Assembly: GCF_905475395.1 (NCBI RefSeq)
Contig: NC_058340.1
Coordinates: 65,574,181 to 65,638,180, forward strand
Source of the DNA: Chrysoperla carnea
Taxonomy: Eukaryota > Arthropoda > Insecta > Neuroptera > Chrysopidae
Length of the DNA: 64,000 nt
Reading direction: 5' to 3'
Position numbers and translations under genes: made by a program
Shown here: in pieces, positions 3,051 to 53,575 of the stretch
Layout: the number at the start of each line of letters is the position of its first letter
How positions within the stretch are numbered: position 1 is the first letter of the stretch
The notes under the pieces: generated by a model
The model's database searches: none
The model's input: the letters and a program-made list of their open reading frames with translations, nothing else
Told to the model about the DNA's origin: nothing

Positions 3051-3590
3051 TTATTTGATTGTGTGGAAAGATTGAGAGCAATGTTGATGTAAACCCACCC
3101 CACATTTGCTGCAACGAAACTTAGTATTCTTGTGGCATTCACGACACCGAATTTGAGTTTCATTTCGGATTGTATAGTGATTCTTTCCATCGAGCCTTAT
3201 CGAATCAGGCAGTTTATTCTTGACTGGCATAGATGACTTAGTTCCAATCGATTTTGAAAGAGATGATGATGCTTTGCCAAGAATTAGGTAACTTTGTACG
3301 ATGTATCTTGTAAATGACAAAAAATCGTGGGAATCTTTAGCTTGACCTGCTGGTGAGAGTCGGTACAATTGGTATGCGTTATTTGCACACACATTTATGG
3401 GGAACATCTTCATTTGCCAATACCATCTCTTTAGCCTTATACCAATTCTATATTTACCAACATTTTGGTCAAGTCTGTCGACTCCACCCATGAACTTGTT
3501 GTATATTTGGTAACAGTGTGGTTGATCTACGTCAACTCTTTTATTGTTGCACCACCTTTTTACCTTTCCAATTGGCTGATTCAGATGTAG
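3051..3590 (-). pseudogene. piggyBac transposase, C-terminal remnant
   Basis: An open frame reads through KVKRWCNNK, VDQPHCYQIYNKFMGGVDRLDQN and KRWYWQMK. NKxMGGVDxxD is the hallmark of the piggyBac transposase (DDE_Tnp_1_7) C-terminal half. The chain ends with a cysteine/histidine cluster (CRECHKNTKFRCSKCGVGLH, then C at a short distance), the zinc-binding C-terminal domain of the family. The part with the first catalytic aspartates is absent. The frame breaks near 3600, where the sequence switches to the N-terminal remnant. Confidence 0.88.
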
Positions 3591-3609
3591 AGTGTTCCTT
3601 CTCAGGTTT

Positions 3610-3978
3610 TGCTGTTATATCCGTCTGCTTCCACTTCCTCTTGAATATAGTCCTAGCTTTCTTTGCAGGATGTTAAACGCCTTGGGATGTGGATGGCTGT
3701 TCCTCTTCTCCTTTCTGATTTATATCATCAATATCTTCTACCGTTTCTAGAACTCCTTCTGATGATAGAACCGTACGTCGAACCTCAGCTTCAGCCAACA
3801 ACTGGCGACGCGATAGATTACTAATCTCCACTACATCCTCGCTTCCACTATCTTCATCACTCAAATCATCATTTCCAGGTGGCGTGATAAAAATGTCAGC
3901 AGAAATTGTAAGACTATCGTCTTCCAAGATCGATATAATTTCATGAACATTCAACCTGTAGCAAGCAAACAAGAGCAC
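3610..3978 (-). pseudogene. piggyBac transposase, N-terminal acidic remnant
   Basis: An open frame of about 100 residues starts at 3978. It is rich in Asp/Glu/Ser (DDLSDEDSGSEDVVE), as is usual for piggyBac transposase N-termini, and stops at 3673. A basic stretch (PAKKARTIFKRKWKQ) follows in another frame down to about 3610, next to the C-terminal remnant. The arrangement fits a large internal deletion that joined the two ends out of frame. Assignment of this half depends on its position inside the element. Confidence 0.6.
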
Positions 3979-4908
3979 AATAACTCCAAATGTATAAAAA
4001 CTACGTTTAAATAAAAATAATGCAACAAACTATCATGGTGCCTCCCATTCCCAACGCACCTCAAATGGGGCGTTCAATTTAACCGAACAAAAGTCACGTA
4101 TAAAAATAAAATATCACCATGTTCATGATATTACCCGATAGTAGAACTAATAACTTACTAAAATACCGTTACACTAAAATTTTAAATAATAAATATAAAA
4201 CTTATCACTTACCCTTTCCGGGAACTCATATTGGTTGAAATTCACAAAACTCGATGGCTTATAAAAATTTAATGAATAACCACAATCACTGTCAAACACT
4301 ATTAAAGTAACTGCGAAGATGTCTAGTATAACATAAAACTATAAAACCTGTCGAACCTTGTTAATATTTTGTTTTGTCACATAAAATGTAAGTGCACCTT
4401 AAATGGTACAGTGGGAAGATATGGGTTAAAAAAGGTTTGATATTAAAATAAAATCTTAATACAATTGTAGTTAATTTTTATTAAAGGTTTGATTTTGAGT
4501 TACACAGTGAATATTACAAAAAAAGAATGATGTTAACACAATTAGTTGAGGAAAACGTAAACAAAAAAAACTTACTTTCTAAAAAGATAATAATAATATA
4601 ATTCAAAATATCAATTTTATATGAAAAAATCGTCCTATAAGTTTTACAAATTAAATATATTTTACATTAATTTGATCCAATTAAGATCATTTTTATGTTT
4701 TAACTTACATTTAATATTGATTTTACTTCTCTTCCATTTTATTTCAAATATCAAAAATTTATTTTATTTTTTTTTTTTAAGTTTTTGTAATAAATTTAAA
4801 ATAAAGTTTGGTTTGTGTGTGGCAATAAAAAACTTATATAATTTTTAAGACTTAATATTATATCATTAATATGTAAAATGAAAAAACATTTTCATATTAG
4901 GATGAAGT

Positions 4909-7900
4909 TTAATCACCATTACGGTCAGCCTCAGCATTGTCGGCTGAATGACTTCGGCTTCGACTCCGACTTCGAGATTTACTATGATCTCGACTGCCTG
5001 AACGTGATCTTGAATGAGATCTATCACTGTAAACAAAAATTTATGAAATCAATATTTATAATCGCTATAAGCATGCAGTTTTTTTAATGAGAAAAATATA
5101 GTGTGTCCCCGGATAGAGGTAACTATACTTGTAAATTTCCTTATTTTGCATTTTAAGAAAGAAAAACTTCTTATAAATAATGACTATACTTGTAAATTTT
5201 CTTATTTTGCATTTTAAGAAAAAAAGTCATTATTTATAAGAAGTTTTTCTTTCTTAAAATGCAAAATAAGAAAATTTACAAGTATAGTTATCTCTATCCG
5301 GGGACACACTGTATATGAAAAACATTAATTTTATAGAAAACTTAAAAGAAGTTAAATTAATATATTAACTTAATGTTCATGAAAGATTTTTTGAAATTAT
5401 TATTGAGACGGCCAAACAAGTGGTCGACATCTCCGATTCTGCTTTTCGGATTGAGGTCAACTTAGACTTAAAATTTCCTCCTTCTGAGTCAAGAGATTCA
5501 ATTTATTTGTCTTTTATTTTCTGAGCGATGGGAAGGTGGTTTAAAATAATATTTTTTTTAGATAGACCTTATGCAGTTTTATTTCTTACTAATATTTATG
5601 CTCATTCAAAGTGGGAAGTTCAAAAACTGCCACAGACAGTCGCAAATCTCTTATAAACAATTTAATTAATTTACTTAAACAATTGCAAAATACGTGAGAT
5701 ATAATAACGTATCTAGTACGTACTTTAGTCGGATTTTAATTATTTGTTAATCCTATTTTCACGTCAAAATGACCTCGAATTAACGAGATTTTTGTGCACA
5801 GAGTTGAATTAAAACAATATACTTACTTGGATTCTTCTTTAGCTTTTGAAACTGATCGTGACTTGGAACGTTTTGATTCTGAACGAGGGCGGGATCGTGA
5901 ACGTGACTTACTCTTTGAACGATCACGTGATTTTGAACGACTACGTCGAGAACCGCTACGGCTAGAAGAATGAGGACTAAAAATTATTTCAATACAAAAT
6001 ACAAATTAAAAATGCTAATTTTCAATTTTACTTACCTTCTGGATCGTGAACGACGATGTGAACGCGATCGAGATCTTGATCGACTATCGGAAGAACGTGA
6101 ACGACGTCCACCAGAGAACTTATCTTCGATTACACGAATTCTACGTCCATTTATTTCGGTGTTGTCCAATTTATCAATTGCTTTTTTCATGTCCGAGTAT
6201 GTAGCGAATTCAACAAGTCTATAAAAGAAAATAAAAAACAAAATTAACTTTTATTTTTTAAATTTAAAACTTTGCGATTAATATTTGGTTTACTAAAAAC
6301 ACTTATTTGGCCTGGAAATAATAAAGAATCATCACAGTAGCTTTTGAGGGGGATTTCTCAAAATGATCCGTTATTTGGAAATGATTCAATTCAGGTTCTT
6401 TTTTTCTAAAGACTAGAGTAACTGAGTAAAATAAAAAAATAAATTCGGATTATTTACCCTTCATTCTTGCGTTTATGCGCATCTGCATATGTAACTTCTC
6501 CAGCTTGACGCATGTAGTCCTTAAGATCCTGCACAGAGAATTATATTAGCAGTGGTATCAAGTTACTTTAAAAATAAAAATAATAAAAAATAAAATGAAA
6601 TAAATGATTTTTTTTAAATATAAACTACATATAAATATAAAAATATCACGCCACACAGAATAAATATTTATATAAGTAATAAGAAATATAATTACTTTGG
6701 CGCGAATCAAATAATGAATTCGAGACAACAATAAATAACAAATACAGTAAAAAAAATATATTTTTTTAACATAAAAGGCGATTTATCTCCCTTCGATTCA
6801 CCTGCTAACCACTAACTTAATTGTTAACATTAGTTTGATTTCATTCATTTGATTATTTTGTATTTTTTATAGAAACATTTTTTTGTATTAAGGTGTTTCG
6901 ATAAGGAAAAACATTAAGTATACATCTAATGGACATCGTAATAAACACTTAACACAAAATTGGACGTCATAATTATGTATAGCCAACTTGACTACATCTA
7001 CGCTACGGTTCAGCGTAGCATTAATCATTCATTTCAGAACGACTAGAAATTTGAGAGACTATTGTGAAAATCGTGTTAATTTTTTATCTACGCAAACATG
7101 GTGTACCACAAGTTGAATTAATTTTAAATATGCCCTGAAAGATAAGAGCCCGGTCTATTACAGCTAACGTTCCTCATTTTAACATAAAATGGTTCGGTTG
7201 TTGTCAGATGAGAAAGGTGACTTTGGTAGACGACGCTCCTTGCAAACATCTAGCACCCCATATTAACTATGACCGCGTTCTAAATGTTTGCAAAGCACGT
7301 AGCCCCCAGTTTCAATAAAATTTGAAGCGTATGAAGTAACCAAGGCAAATATTTACGTTAGATTAAAATCCATGACATTATTAAACAATTGTAAAATAGA
7401 CCCAAGTGCCGACGCTTTTTTTAAAGTCTTAGACAGTTTGCACACGCTAAATAAAACGCATAGTATTACGTAACCCCTTCCAATAACATATATTTTATTG
7501 TAAACGCGATCAGGGGCGAACTAGCACGAAACGGACCACCGGGAACTTATACCAAATTCGTCTTGCAAAAAATTAATCGGATACGCACTTTAATCTTTGG
7601 CAGACATATGTTATCTCTTTCTTAACTCTGAAATGAGCTTTTATACACAATTCAATGAAATTTGAATTCAATATTGGACTATTTAAATTACTTGGAGTGT
7701 AAAACATATTTATAATTGAAAATTTAATATTCGGACATTTTGAACCGACATTTTCTCGTTTTTTGATCATCGGTCTACCGGGAATTTTCTCAAACTCCCA
7801 CATGGCTAGTCCGCCCCCGAATGTATCACTAATAATGGAAGCCGTTTTTGAATCACATTTGTCCTAAATTTTTAAAGTTAAAAAAAAATCGTGAATCATA

Positions 7901-14325: not shown

Positions 14326-14505
14326 GTAGGATTTAGTCAAGACTTTTGTTATACTGACAAACTATTGCATGTGTAGCAGGCTTTATATTTTGAAGGTGCT
14401 ATTCGTAATGTTTTAAATTTTAATGAAGTTGGTATCATTGAGTTTTGATGTATGTTATGAAAACATTTCAAAAGAAAATCTGTGTTAATTTTCGTTTTTT
14501 TGAAT

Positions 14506-15177
14506 ATGGCAGCATTATTTTCTCGTAACGGTTGTTCCACATCCAGTGAAAATGATGATTGGGATGATACCGAATTAATAAAAGCATACGACATAGCAAT
14601 AAGTAGTTCGAAGCAAAAAATAAAAGAACGTTTAAACGCACAAAGTGAAAACAAAAGTGAAAAACAATCTTTGAAAACGATTCCAGCTAGAGTTGGAGCA
14701 CCATGTAGAGCTATATACGATGCAGACAACATCGAATATGAAGCGACTATTATAAATATTGAAAACGAACATGAAGTTACTGTACAATATATAGGCTACG
14801 GTAATACACAAAAAGTGCCTATAAAAAGATTACGACCTTCACATGGATCACAAGCGCGTATCGACCAAGAACAGGCGGCAAACGAATTACAGAATATGGA
14901 TACGGAGGTTGGTGATAGCATACCACCTAAACGAACATCAGAGGGCCCTAGAAATCCGTCAGCGAATAAAATGTCACGTTTATCTGCGCCACCGCCACTG
15001 ATTGAAATGAATATGTTTGGTGAAATGTCATTTCCTCCACCTCCTCCATTTCCACCTAGTTTTGCGAAAAATATGAAATCCGAAGAACATGAAGCCTTAA
15101 ATTCTATGCTTATGTCATGGTATATGAGTGGTTATTATACGGGTTATTATCAGGGACTCAAGGAATCTAAGAAATAA
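14506..15177 (+). CDS. Smn: Survival motor neuron protein (SMN)
   Basis: A single-exon gene of 223 aa. The start at 14506 (MAALFSRNG) was preferred over an in-frame ATG eight codons upstream because the latter adds only hydrophobic residues. Residues 19-29 (WDDTELIKAYD) match the Gemin2-binding motif. Residues 60-113 form the Tudor domain (GAPCRAIYDADN, YIGYGN) that binds symmetric dimethyl-arginine on Sm proteins. A proline run lies at about 172-185. The C-terminus WYMSGYYTGYYQG is the YG-box that mediates oligomerisation. Family role: cytoplasmic assembly of Sm rings on spliceosomal snRNAs and Cajal-body function. The length and intronless form resemble Drosophila Smn. A small MITE starts six bases after the stop. 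An AATAAA signal occurs just after the stop and near 15366. Confidence 0.95.
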   Translation: MAALFSRNGCSTSSENDDWDDTELIKAYDIAISSSKQKIKERLNAQSENKSEKQSLKTIPARVGAPCRAIYDADNIEYEATIINIENEHEVTVQYIGYGNTQKVPIKRLRPSHGSQARIDQEQAANELQNMDTEVGDSIPPKRTSEGPRNPSANKMSRLSAPPPLIEMNMFGEMSFPPPPPFPPSFAKNMKSEEHEALNSMLMSWYMSGYYTGYYQGLKESKK

Positions 15178-17761: not shown

Positions 17762-20105
17762 TTATTGTTGTAATTGTACATAATTTGCTGGGAATAGTCC
17801 ATATCTTCCACGGCATAAACCTCGCCACCAACCTTCGTCAATCTAGGGAAAAAATTATTATTGTGATTTACAGTAAACTTAACATAATGTGTTCTTTAAA
17901 TAGGCGTCGTTAAACATAACGTGGCTTGTAATTGTCGGATTCGAAAAACTACTTACCATTTCAATATGTGTAATGATATCTTCTGGATCAAATGATATTT
18001 CATCATCCGCAGCGGATTGATAATCATATAATGCGATTGCTACTAAGCCTGTATCTTCTAATTCAGTAATTTCATCAGCCGCAGCTTCATTTGTTTCTGG
18101 ATTCGCTTGAATATCTATAGGTTCAATTGGTACCTACATATAAAAAAAAGTTATAAGGAAAATAGCAATTTATTAAGAGATCAATAAAAAAAGTGTCTTG
18201 AGCAAGAGGACGGCGAAAGATTTAAAGTATATAAAGCATCATTTTTTATTTGAACAAAGCTCTAATTATAAAAAAAAAACGTAAGAAAGAAAATAGTAAT
18301 AAATCAATTAACATGTACTATTTGAGAGTGTAATTTTTTGTGGATTAGGCTAGAAAATTAAAAAGAAAATTTATTTTCTCTGATAAACATTCACTAAGAA
18401 TGGAATTGTCAAAGTTGGAAAGATCTTCTTGATATTTTGTATGGAGTCATAATTGTTAATTTCGAGTAATTTTTTTTAGTAACATTTTGTCAACTTTTAA
18501 AAACGAAGGGTAGTTTACCCCAAAAAAAAATAGTGATACCAAATTTTTGGCTACCCTGTACATTATTAAGAAGTTTTAAATATACCTACATACTTTTCAG
18601 AATAAGCAAAACTTCTTATAAAGAATGACTTTTTTTCTTAAAATGCAAAATAAGAAAATTTACAAGTATAGTTACCTCTATCGGGGGGACACTGTATATT
18701 AAATAAGTAAACACTTTTATAAATTATGAAATAATTACCTCGGGAACTGAACTTGGGTCGTCTTTAACTACCGAATTTGGTGTTTCCTGTAAATTAAAAA
18801 TTTTAAAATAAGGAAAATGTCCAATAACTGTTTTCAAAAATTTGGTATCTTACGTACATTTACTACAGGTTGCTCGGCTAATTTTTCGTCTGTTTTACTA
18901 CTTTCAATAATCTTTTCAACATTTTTAGTACTTTCAACAACATTCGATGTAACTTGCTCACTAGTTTTCTCAATAATCGTTTGTTTCTTTATAGTCTCCG
19001 TTTTCTCAACGTTCGTTGTAGAGTTTTTATTCAAAAACATACTTGTTTTCGACGCATCTAATTGTTTTACAGCCTTCTTTTCAGGACTTTTTGAATTAGT
19101 AGTTTCTGAAGAATCAGAACGGCTCATATTTTCAAATTTTGCACGAAGATCAGACGGCTTTGCCCCACCTATATCAGGTTTTGTTTTTGTATATGTCGTT
19201 CCTACTTTGGTTGGTTCGTCCGTAAATGTTGCAGCTGATTTATCCATACGATCTGTTTGTATACCAAATTTACCACCAAAACCTTTTTTGTGATCGACTT
19301 GACTCTCGTGTTTGTGTAAGTTTTCATGATGATCCCATCCAACCGCACTTTTATCTTGTCGATCGGATTGTACACCAAATTGACCTCCAAAACCAGTTTT
19401 ATAATCTTTTTGTGATTCATGTTTACCGACTTGTTCAACGTGATCCCATCCCACTGCGGATTTATCTTGACGATCGGCTTGAACACCGAATTTTCCACCA
19501 AAACCGGCACTATAATCTTTTTGAGAGGCATGTTTTTCAATTTTTTCCTTGTAATCCCAATTAACAGCGCTCTATGGAAAAATTAAAAACATACATGCTC
19601 AAATTTTGGAAAAAAATTAAAATCTTAAGAAAATTTGTCCTTACTTTATCAATTCTATCGGTTTGTACTCCAAATTTCCCACCAAATCCAGCACTATAAT
19701 CTTTTTGTGATACATGTTTCTCAACTTTTGCAACATAATCATGTCCTACAGCCGACTGATCCATTCTATCAGCTTCAACACCAAATTTACCACCATAGCC
19801 AAAAGAAGGATTTGGTCCTTCTTCCAACTCTTTACGTTTTCGTTCAGCTTCGGCTTGTTCAGTTTCTTGTCGCAATTTTGCCATACTAAAAATTATTTTT
19901 ATCAATTAGCCAATTAATGAATATTTTTATAAATTAAGTTTACTTACTCAATTGCCCCAACTTGCCGTCCAGATCCTTCGATTGTTTTGGACCCCCATCG
20001 TTGTTCTTGTTCGTCAACATCATTTATAAAATCTGGATCAGTTTCCCAATCGTCGTCTTCAGCGGGTTTTATATCCACATTATTCGCTATACTTGCTTTC
20101 CACAT
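17762..20105 (-). CDS. Cortactin: Cortactin (actin-branching regulator)
   Basis: Six coding exons on the minus strand: 19948-20105, 19645-19885, 18858-19571, 18739-18786, 17957-18133 and 17762-17842. They total 1419 nt, 472 aa, with closing phases. Residues 17-20 hold the acidic DDDW motif that binds Arp2/3. Four 37-residue cortactin/HS1 repeats ([17 protein letters not shown]) run from about 80 to 227, and a partial fifth to about 249. A Ser/Thr/Lys-rich segment follows. The C-terminal SH3 domain (about 416-470) has ALYDYQ, DEGWWRG and FPANYVQL. Family role: binds F-actin and stabilises Arp2/3 branches at the cell cortex. For exon 3 the donor T|GTACGT was chosen over the better-looking GTAAGA three bases later because only the former keeps frame with exon 4. 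A 5' UTR intron is likely (donor at 20179, CTAG|GTGAGT). Confidence 0.95.
18590..18702 (-). mobile_element. Half copy of the Tc1/mariner-like MITE
   Basis: AACTTCTTATAAAGAATGAC, a TTTTTCTTAAAATGCAAAAT tract, then AAGTATAGTTACCTCTATC, GGGGACACTG and TA match the right arm of the element at 5099-5311. The left arm is missing. It sits in the cortactin intron 18134-18738. Confidence 0.75.
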
Positions 20106-50706: not shown

Positions 50707-51990
50707 GAGCTAGGCTCATTTTAGCCCATTCTTTAAATCAAGAATACAATGGTTAAATTTTTTTAAATTTTGATTATCTTTCTGATGGTTTTGAGATAAA
50801 CTTTTGGTTAAAAATAAAACACGCACTGTTTTAACGGAAATTGTAATTGACCCTAATCATTAATATTTGTGGGTTATTTTTGGAACAATTTAAGAGTAAT
50901 TCTTTAGGTCAAACTGATCTGGATCGAAATGCGTTGAATCGAGAACAGGTTTTTGATATTGCTGAGTTTGGTATTAACGGTTTCGCAGGTATTTAGCTTA
51001 TATTTAAATTAATGTTCATTTAATTTGTACAATGTTTCAAAAATTATTGTATCTTTTTCAAATGCTTAGAAAAAACGTTATAGACAATAAGTTTCAAATC
51101 TTTACTATTGCCTCTACCAAAGTGGAAATGATAATCGTTGAATGCCATATTTATTGTAGAAAGGGTCTAGCCGTATAAGCATATGAAAACTGCACCAGCG
51201 CCTGATGAAGAGTTCTTGCCTTGTTTTTATTGTTTTTCATCTAAAATAGCCATACACTTGATCTCACACTCCTAACCCCCATAGTAAGGGAGTAATAGGG
51301 GTAACAACCCTTAACGAAAAAGTTTTTTTTCTCAGTACCTATTGAAGATATCTTCATGAAATTGAAACTGTACATGACTATAGACAAACTAAATATTATA
51401 TATTTTTTTTAGAATTTTTGCATCATTATAAACTGTAAAAAACGAGAAGTATATTTTTTGGGGGTGGATTTTTATAACAACCCCCAGAGTGACACCTACC
51501 AAAAAAATATATTTTATTTGTTAGTTAGTTGGCTATTACATGCTCAAGTTACAAAAGGATCGAATTGGTGGAACATGGTTAAAAAAAATAAAAATTAATT
51601 ACAGATGCATGCATATATGCACATATTATAAATCAATTTTTACCATAAATATGTAAACGTCTTTGCACTGTTTCAATTTTTTGCATTTGTTTCTTTGCAT
51701 TTGTTTGGGCGATTTTCGAACAGCGTGTTATAGACTCGTTACAATGTTATATTGAACTATAATTATACATAGTGAAATAGTGAACATGTATTGATTTCTT
51801 CATTTTCATGCAAGTTTTGTCAAGCTATAAGAAGTTAACTAGTGAGTCAAAACATAAGTGGCAAGCGACGTATAAGTATATTTAGGCAAAAGAAAATTGT
51901 TTTTTGTTAGGTATTTTGCGAGAGTTTTAAATATCAATTGTGTATTAAGTGCGTTTCAGTTTTTCATGATAACAATTGTGAGCAGAAATA

Positions 51991-53105
51991 ATGGAGAAAA
52001 CAATTGAACTTAATAAAGATGACTAATATGCTAATTGTAAACTAAGCATCAGAAAAGGCAGTCAAAAATTAAAACGTATTATTATAAATGAGGATTTAGA
52101 TCGATATCAACCTTATTGTAAAAATACTTTACATATTGGATCCGTATTTTGTTGCAAATGTAGGCTGATAATATATAGAGTTGCGAAACCGACTACGTCT
52201 ACTAACAGTGGTGATCGTGATGAAAATGAAAGTTACGGCAGTGTTTTGGATGATCCAAACTTTCAAGTGTTTTGACGCAGTAGTTCACGTCAAGAAGAAT
52301 ATTCAGAGTTTCAAATCAAAAGAGTTAAAACAACACATATTTACTGTAAAGCAGGATTCGAGGATATATATCAGTGGATATATATCATGATATATATCCG
52401 ATATATATCAAATGATTATTTATGATATATATCAATACAAACAAGATTTAAAAATCCCCAAATGTAAATGGAGTTCGAGTAGAGTTAAAACATATTCCCT
52501 AATATGTTCTAATCCATAAATGGCAACACTTCTGCCGGCATTAATGGCGTCAGTCGTGTAACTTGTAATTATAGAATATAACCGTTTATTCTATAAATGT
52601 AAATATCAAACTTTTGATATATATCGGATATATATCATAAATATCCGATATTTTGATATTTATAATAAATATCGGATATTTTCGAACCCTACTGTAAAGT
52701 ATGTGAATCTAAAAAGAATCTTACTAGTGTGCCTTTAGATGCTCGCCTGCAAGCATTTATTAAACGAAGAATTTTTTTTCCAAAAGGAAACAGATGTTGC
52801 CAAAACCATTTGATAAAAAAACGGTTTTTTGACGATGATTTACACTTGTTACGAGTTTATTCTTACCATAATTAATTAGAAAAAGGCGAAGTTTCCCAAC
52901 TTTTAATATTTTAGCTAATAATGATGGTTTAACACTACTCAATAGAGTTGACGGATTTGGTGTTTCTGAAGAAGAAATATTTACATGCACAGGTCTTGAA
53001 TGGGGAAATATTATTCGATTAAAGGGAATGCTTCCTAGAATGAGAGATAGTGATGAACGAACGGCATTGCAAGCATTGGTAGTCTTTTTAGTTAAATTCA
53101 GAACT
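51991..53105 (+). pseudogene. Harbinger/ISL2EU-like transposase N-terminal remnant
   Basis: From ATG at 51991 one frame continues, with stops at 52024 (TAA) and 52274 (TGA), to THIYCK at 52351. After the inserted MITE it resumes as VCESKKNLTSVPLDARLQAF, then a RRIFFPKGNRCCQNHL stretch and FFDDDLHLL, stopping at about 52875. A frame change leads to DGLTLLNRVDGFGVSEEEIF, TGLEWGNI and ALQALVVFLVKFRTG. The CKVC...RCCQNHL arrangement and the LxxFLxKxRTG motif resemble N-termini of insect DDE_Tnp_4 (Harbinger/ISL2EU) transposases. The catalytic part is missing. Confidence 0.65.
52352..52691. mobile_element. hAT-type MITE nested in the transposase remnant
   Basis: The element begins CAGGATTCGA and ends TCGAACCCTA, and is flanked by a perfect 8-bp duplication CTGTAAAG (52344-52351 and 52692-52699), the target size of hAT elements. 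The interior near both ends is built of palindromic GATATATATC / GGATATTT units, so it folds strongly. Length is 340 bp, with no ORF. Removing the insert and one duplication restores an uninterrupted reading frame through a CKVC motif, which confirms the insertion site. Confidence 0.92.
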
Positions 53106-53575
53106 GGTACTATATCATATAACTACATATATGTAATTGATTTTTATTTTTTTTAACCATGTTCCACCAATTCGATCCTTTTGTAACTTTAGCATGTAAT
53201 AGCTAACTAACTAACAAATAAAATATATTTTTTTGGTAGGTGTCACTTTGGGGGTTGTTATAAAAATCCACCCCCAAAAAATATACTTCTCGTTTTTTAC
53301 AGTTTATAATGACGCAAAAATTCTAAAAAAAATATATAATATTTAGTTTGTCTATAGTCATGTACAGTTTCAATTTCATGAAGATATCTTCAATAGGTAC
53401 TGAGAAAAAAAACTTTTTCGTTAAGGGTTGTTACCCCTATTACTCCCTTACTATGGGGGTTAGGAGTGTGAGATCAAGTGTATGGCTATTTTAGATGATA
53501 AACAATAAAAACAAGACAAGAACTCTTCATCAGGCGCTGGTGCAGTTTTCATATGCTTATACGGCTAGACCCTTT

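Follow-up and report, generated by a model that had tools for sequence, protein, structure and literature searches.

An internally deleted, Spy-like transposon with long terminal arms homogenized within the element

The window (the whole 64-kb stretch of DNA analyzed here, C4:65574181-65638180 of the 559-Mb genome G000) contains, at 51160-53575, a transposon whose two long terminal arms are nearly identical around a ruined transposase gene. We consider it probable that this is a defective, internally deleted cut-and-paste element of the Spy group (PHIS superfamily), the coding part of which decayed neutrally and the arms of which were homogenized by gene conversion within the element. As such, the arm likeness is a clear and largely ordinary case of sequence exchange from end to end. 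Long-arm Spy elements (in the part of PMC11304231 drawn on here) and the near-identity of arms within copies of Galileo (PMC3573991) are already in print; at the level of titles and abstract openings, we found no description of arm homogenization in Spy elements in the literature.

Architecture of the element

The ends of the element are formed by terminal inverted repeats of 444 bp, here termed arms, with the left arm at 51160-51603 (plus strand) and the right arm at 53132-53575 (minus strand). On alignment of the left arm with the reverse complement of the right, 437 of 444 positions match (7 mismatches, 0 gaps), which bears out the original prediction of near-identical arms of about this length. 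A repeat finder extends the pairing to 460 nt at 97% complementarity around a spacer of 1496 nt; it scanned 5001 bases, and the inverted repeat that ranks second in length has 46 nt at 80%. When the 64 kb were base-shuffled once, the 32-base end motif had no match in them even with 11 mismatches allowed. Hence, the pairing of the arms lies far above chance. It ends at the inner border, inward of which the left and right sequences differ. Foldback-type elements have long arms made of internal direct subrepeats; in a scan for direct repeats of at least 20 nt, none was listed inside a single arm of the window copy.

The interior carries a transposase pseudogene on the plus strand, which can be aligned to the open frame of a related copy (L031:4071-6113, described below) and which lies in two parts. 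The first, at 51991-52343, has in-frame stops at 52024-52026 and 52273-52275; the second, at 52692-53109, carries a stop codon with its last base at 52875, has lost one base near 52904, and stops short of the catalytic domain. The two parts are separated by a nested MITE of 340 bp (52352-52691; ends CAGGATTCGA / TCGAACCCTA), flanked by the left (52344-52351) and right (52692-52699) copies of an 8-bp target duplication, CTGTAAAG. We take this insertion to be hAT-like from the features of its ends and duplication. A three-way alignment indicates that the two other copies with a transposase interior lack the MITE and hold its unoccupied site, with a single CTGTAAAG. The MITE has many relatives in the genome, up to 99% identical over parts. 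At 53109/53110 lies the junction of a 1370-bp internal deletion (with a 1-bp overlap, read by eye): L031 bases 4810-6179, from inside the transposase to the 3′ untranslated part, are missing here, which is why the window copy is without the DDE part. The window feature is, then, an internal-deletion derivative, and its stops, frameshift, and lost catalytic part agree with the decayed interior that had been predicted.

Elsewhere in the window, Pfam matches identify survival-motor-neuron (SMN) domains and cortactin HS1 repeats in the frames at 14464-15174 (plus strand) and 18837-19571 (minus strand), domains indicative of animal DNA. A fragment at 3054-3614 (minus strand) has a DDE_Tnp_1_7 match in Pfam and presumably derives from a piggyBac-like transposase.

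Relatives in the genome

Sequences matching the left arm are present at least 48 times in the 559-Mb genome (40 of 46 candidates scored), and single arms are numerous in it. The transposase-bearing interior, in a genome search in which the best 40 of 293 candidates were scored, was found at three places only: the window, a copy at C4:50471308-50474688 (L031, henceforth the C4 copy), and one on C5 (L032, henceforth the C5 copy). The remaining interior matches listed fall inside the nested MITE or a few bases past it, and among the same 40 of 293 candidates the deleted form was matched once, by the window itself.

Both arms are likewise present in the C4 copy, where they share 98.2% identity; this copy supplies the full-length relative with a DDE_Tnp_4 domain that the original prediction had envisaged. 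Its frame (L031:4071-6113) is open over 680 codons and matches DDE_Tnp_4 (Pfam, E 1.1e-15), with a weak HTH_Tnp_4 match under the cut-off of that family. By eye, D319, D399, and E447 are the candidate catalytic residues. A C-terminal CxC...CxH pattern, which to us resembles a SWIM finger, has no match in Pfam, and among solved structures no useful sequence match was found (best E 0.16). Though open, the frame is without 33 bp common to the other two copies, and its product may therefore be inactive. In the C5 copy, the frame is broken and the outer part of one arm is gone.

Two palindromic sequences are of note. An 86-bp near-perfect palindrome at L031 6165-6250 adjoins the right arm of the C4 copy, where it duplicates the inner right sequence in inverted orientation. 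At L061 119-283 lies a palindromic MITE of 165 bp, which consists of two facing arm ends from this family and has AAA/TTT ends with no target duplication.

Class assignment

Fifteen places (the window, L031 to L040, L023, and L061 to L063) were scanned for both ends of the element, and two-ended copies were found at six of them: the window, L031, L036, L038, L023, and L061. Each is bounded by AAA on one side and by TTT on the opposite side; a target duplication, be it AT, TWA, or another, is absent from all six. GGG/CCC follows inward at both ends in the window, L031, and L038, and is mismatched at one end or more in L036, L023, and L061. The same scan, which allowed up to 11 mismatches and no indels over 8-9 kb, gave no second end for L032, L033, L034, L035, L039, and L040 and no end at all for L037. 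Of the 24 single ends read, 22 have AAA; L040 and L017 are without it.

The groups of the superfamily are told apart by their targets, which, in the portion of PMC4482050 used here, are given as TWA for PIF/Harbinger, AT in A/AT/T for ISL2EU, and AAATTT without duplication for Spy. Spy is the sister of ISL2EU and has one open reading frame, according to the part of PMC11304231 consulted. A single DDE transposase gene of more than 500 aa, as in Spy, was found in the C4 copy only (680 codons). That one open-frame copy has no other frame above 71 aa, and hence no partner gene of the YqaJ or Myb/SANT kind is seen in it; neither does its transposase match the THAP domain in Pfam up to E 1. From the AAA/TTT ends and the lack of target duplication in all six two-ended copies, together with the gene layout, we propose that the element functions in the manner of the Spy group (PHIS superfamily) and most likely belongs to it. 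The AAA at 51160-51162 and the TTT at 53573-53575 would then be the putative left and right halves of the AAATTT target.

The original prediction had spoken of a Harbinger/ISL2EU-like transposon, and the wider kinship implied by this holds. It is, in our view, rather unlikely that the element is ISL2EU or PIF/Harbinger proper. The DDE_Tnp_4 domain and the weak, below-cut-off HTH_Tnp_4 match are common to the superfamily, and TIRs starting with GG occur in ISL2EU (as given in part of PMC4482050), but the target duplications expected of either group are absent, the flanks fit Spy, and the C4 copy offers neither a frame for a partner gene nor a THAP match.

Homogenization of the arms

Over 439 aligned columns, the four arms of the window and C4 copies are constant at 411, show a single change at 15, and differ by element at 13, with no site that differs by side or crosswise. 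The by-element sites span arm positions 42-385, so most of the arm is involved. Polarized on four other arms, with 10 columns that lack a clear ancestral state and the gapped columns dropped, the derived bases of the window copy number seven in both arms, four in the left only, and two in the right only; the corresponding counts for the C4 copy are seven, two, and three. A tree of 10 arms, from which the short left-arm piece of the C5 copy was omitted, joins the left and right arms of the window copy with an ultrafast bootstrap support of 97 and those of the C4 copy with a support of 99. The best tree that groups the arms by side is rejected (AU p = 1.2e-5). Further, the window arms differ from the C4 arms by 4.1-5.2%, and in a comparison with 13 other arms over the same columns, each window arm has its partner as the nearest.

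Separate evolution of the two arms would predict that a left arm resembles the left arms of other copies no less than it resembles its partner. As the reverse is seen, the arms of the window and C4 copies have been homogenized within the element. The left and right inner borders are distinct, and each is common to several copies. Both arms were thus already present in the ancestor, and existing arms were overwritten rather than remade from scratch. The preponderance of by-element over by-side sites and the rejection of the by-side tree support gene conversion between the arms, one of the explanations that had been offered for their likeness.

The effect is clear in these two copies only. In L038, the partner arms are nearest by a small margin (0.082 versus 0.084 and 0.093), and in the partial C5 pair, L023, L026, L036, and L037 the partner arm is tied, mixed, or farther rather than clearly nearest. 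For the C5 pair, the two arms differ at 6 of 128 positions where both pair, the figure of 15 of 144 being inflated by a deletion in one arm. Homogenization as a rule for the whole family is accordingly not supported, since the older copies give no clear effect. Most copies without the effect are older or badly worn, and conversion may have been lost once they were immobilized.

Neutral decay and the rate of arm evolution

Over 747 coding columns compared among the three copies, 39 substitutions fall on the window branch, spread as 15/13/11 over the three codon positions, in keeping with an absence of constraint (chi-square p = 0.74). Between the C4 and C5 copies there are 57 differing sites, distributed 16/11/30, third positions being overrepresented (p = 0.006). 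The window branch changed at the same rate in the noncoding interior (16/310, 5.2%) as in the coding part (39/747, 5.2%). The coding part of the window copy has decayed neutrally, and the earlier view that selection on it was lost stands confirmed.

The arms and the interior have not diverged equally, which is the contrast that the original prediction had drawn: the arms differ from each other at 7 of 439 columns (1.6%), compared with the 5.2% of the interior on the window branch. The arm branch itself carries 7 to 11 substitutions in about 408, varying with the arm and the third copy used. Taken at 9/408, it is shorter than that of the interior (55/1057, p = 0.010), and for the window and C4 copies together the arms accumulated changes roughly half as fast as the noncoding interior (19/816 versus 31/620, p = 0.008). 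The shortness of the arm branch suggests that constraint, or exchange with the arms of other copies, may also act. Exchange within the element does not fully account for this halved divergence in the two copies.

Alternative explanations

The halved rate of the arms raises the question of whether constraint alone, with both arms selected as transposase binding sites and no exchange between them, could have kept them alike. The rate is consistent with such selection, but the window and C4 arms stand several percent apart with every shared difference falling by element, and constraint cannot put the same seven derived bases in both arms of one copy. With the by-side tree rejected as well, constraint as the sole cause is contradicted, and we hold it to be quite unlikely. 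Another account, put forward in the original prediction, is recent trans-mobilization, by which the deleted copy would have moved as a foldback passenger with a foreign transposase and so come to have young-looking arms. Such a move would be in keeping with the intact ends of the window copy and with the existence of a genomic copy whose transposase frame is open; transposition as such, however, moves the arms unaltered and does not make them alike. Besides, the search that scored the best 40 of 293 candidates matched the deleted form once, which gives no hint of its multiplication after the deletion. Trans-mobilization is not needed to explain the likeness of the arms and appears unlikely, though movement could have supplied the break whose repair homogenized them.

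Single arms are numerous in the genome, as might be expected if the arms were remnants of two separate elements inserted in opposite orientation. The C4 copy, however, shows left border, gene, and right arm in the same arrangement, and none of the 13 other arms compared is as near to a window arm as its partner is; these observations contradict a separate origin, to which we accord next to no probability. It has also been suggested that the arms could give double-stranded RNA, in which case they might have been retained as the source of a hairpin transcript for silencing by siRNA or piRNA. A transcript spanning both arms would indeed fold into a long, near-perfect duplex, but the arms of older copies have diverged or been lost, with no general retention seen, and this explanation strikes us as highly improbable.

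Proposed mechanism and implications

Homogenization by gene conversion probably took place in the following setting. The element started as a copy with a left and a right arm of about 444 bp around one transposase gene. About 1370 bp, including the catalytic domain, were lost, the hAT-like MITE was gained at some stage of the same history, and the coding part drifted neutrally. After the split from the line of the C4 copy, sequence passed from one arm onto the other. The likeliest occasion is that excision or breakage left a double-strand gap, in the repair of which either broken end could take the inverted partner arm as a template; an interrupted repair of the same kind would also yield the internal deletion. 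We favor gap repair as the occasion over exchange in a cruciform or at a stalled replication fork, either of which may be the alternative. Support for such repair comes from the 86-bp palindrome adjoining the C4 right arm, which resembles a template-switch scar, inasmuch as template switching could leave an inverted duplication of this kind.

A broader conjecture, which we offer tentatively and regard as doubtful, is that excision repair in transposons without target duplication (Spy type) regularly copies one long arm onto the other. If true, the difference between the arms would reflect when the element was last broken, not how old the insertion is; homogenized arms would mark recently moved copies, while copies that can no longer be cut would lose the effect. 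The present element provides a clean, small case of concerted evolution inside a single transposon copy, the evidence being derived bases common to both arms and a test of topology. It also cautions that long-arm elements are not safely dated in the manner of LTR elements, from the divergence of their arms. Further, the analysis contributes a long-arm family of Spy type from an animal genome of 559 Mb, in which one copy has an open frame and another is a deletion derivative.

Comparison with known systems

ISL2EU belongs to the same superfamily and has a DDE transposase and GG-starting TIRs; the AT duplication at A/AT/T, the second gene with YqaJ, and the THAP domain, which the portion of PMC4482050 used here gives for it, are not seen in our element. 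Galileo, of the P superfamily in Drosophila, likewise has long arms, deletion derivatives, and solo arms, and its arms are 98-100% identical within a copy, compared with subfamily means of 92-97% between copies (PMC3573991, PMC4168063). Repair of one arm from the other has been proposed for Galileo as well (PMC3573991). It differs in its superfamily, in its 7-bp target duplications, and in its internally repetitive and sometimes much longer arms (PMC3573991, PMC4168063).

The likeness to Spy is drawn from descriptions of that group, from which the window copy differs in being deleted and pseudogenic and in containing a nested MITE. Within the parts of the sources drawn on (PMC11304231; PMC4482050), Spy elements such as cgSpy of the bee Colletes gigas likewise have AAA/TTT flanks without target duplication and a single DDE transposase gene coding for more than 500 aa, as in the C4 copy. 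The window arms, at 444 bp, lie within the 5-691 bp reported for the group in the part of PMC11304231 consulted and are close in length to the 467 bp of cgSpy.
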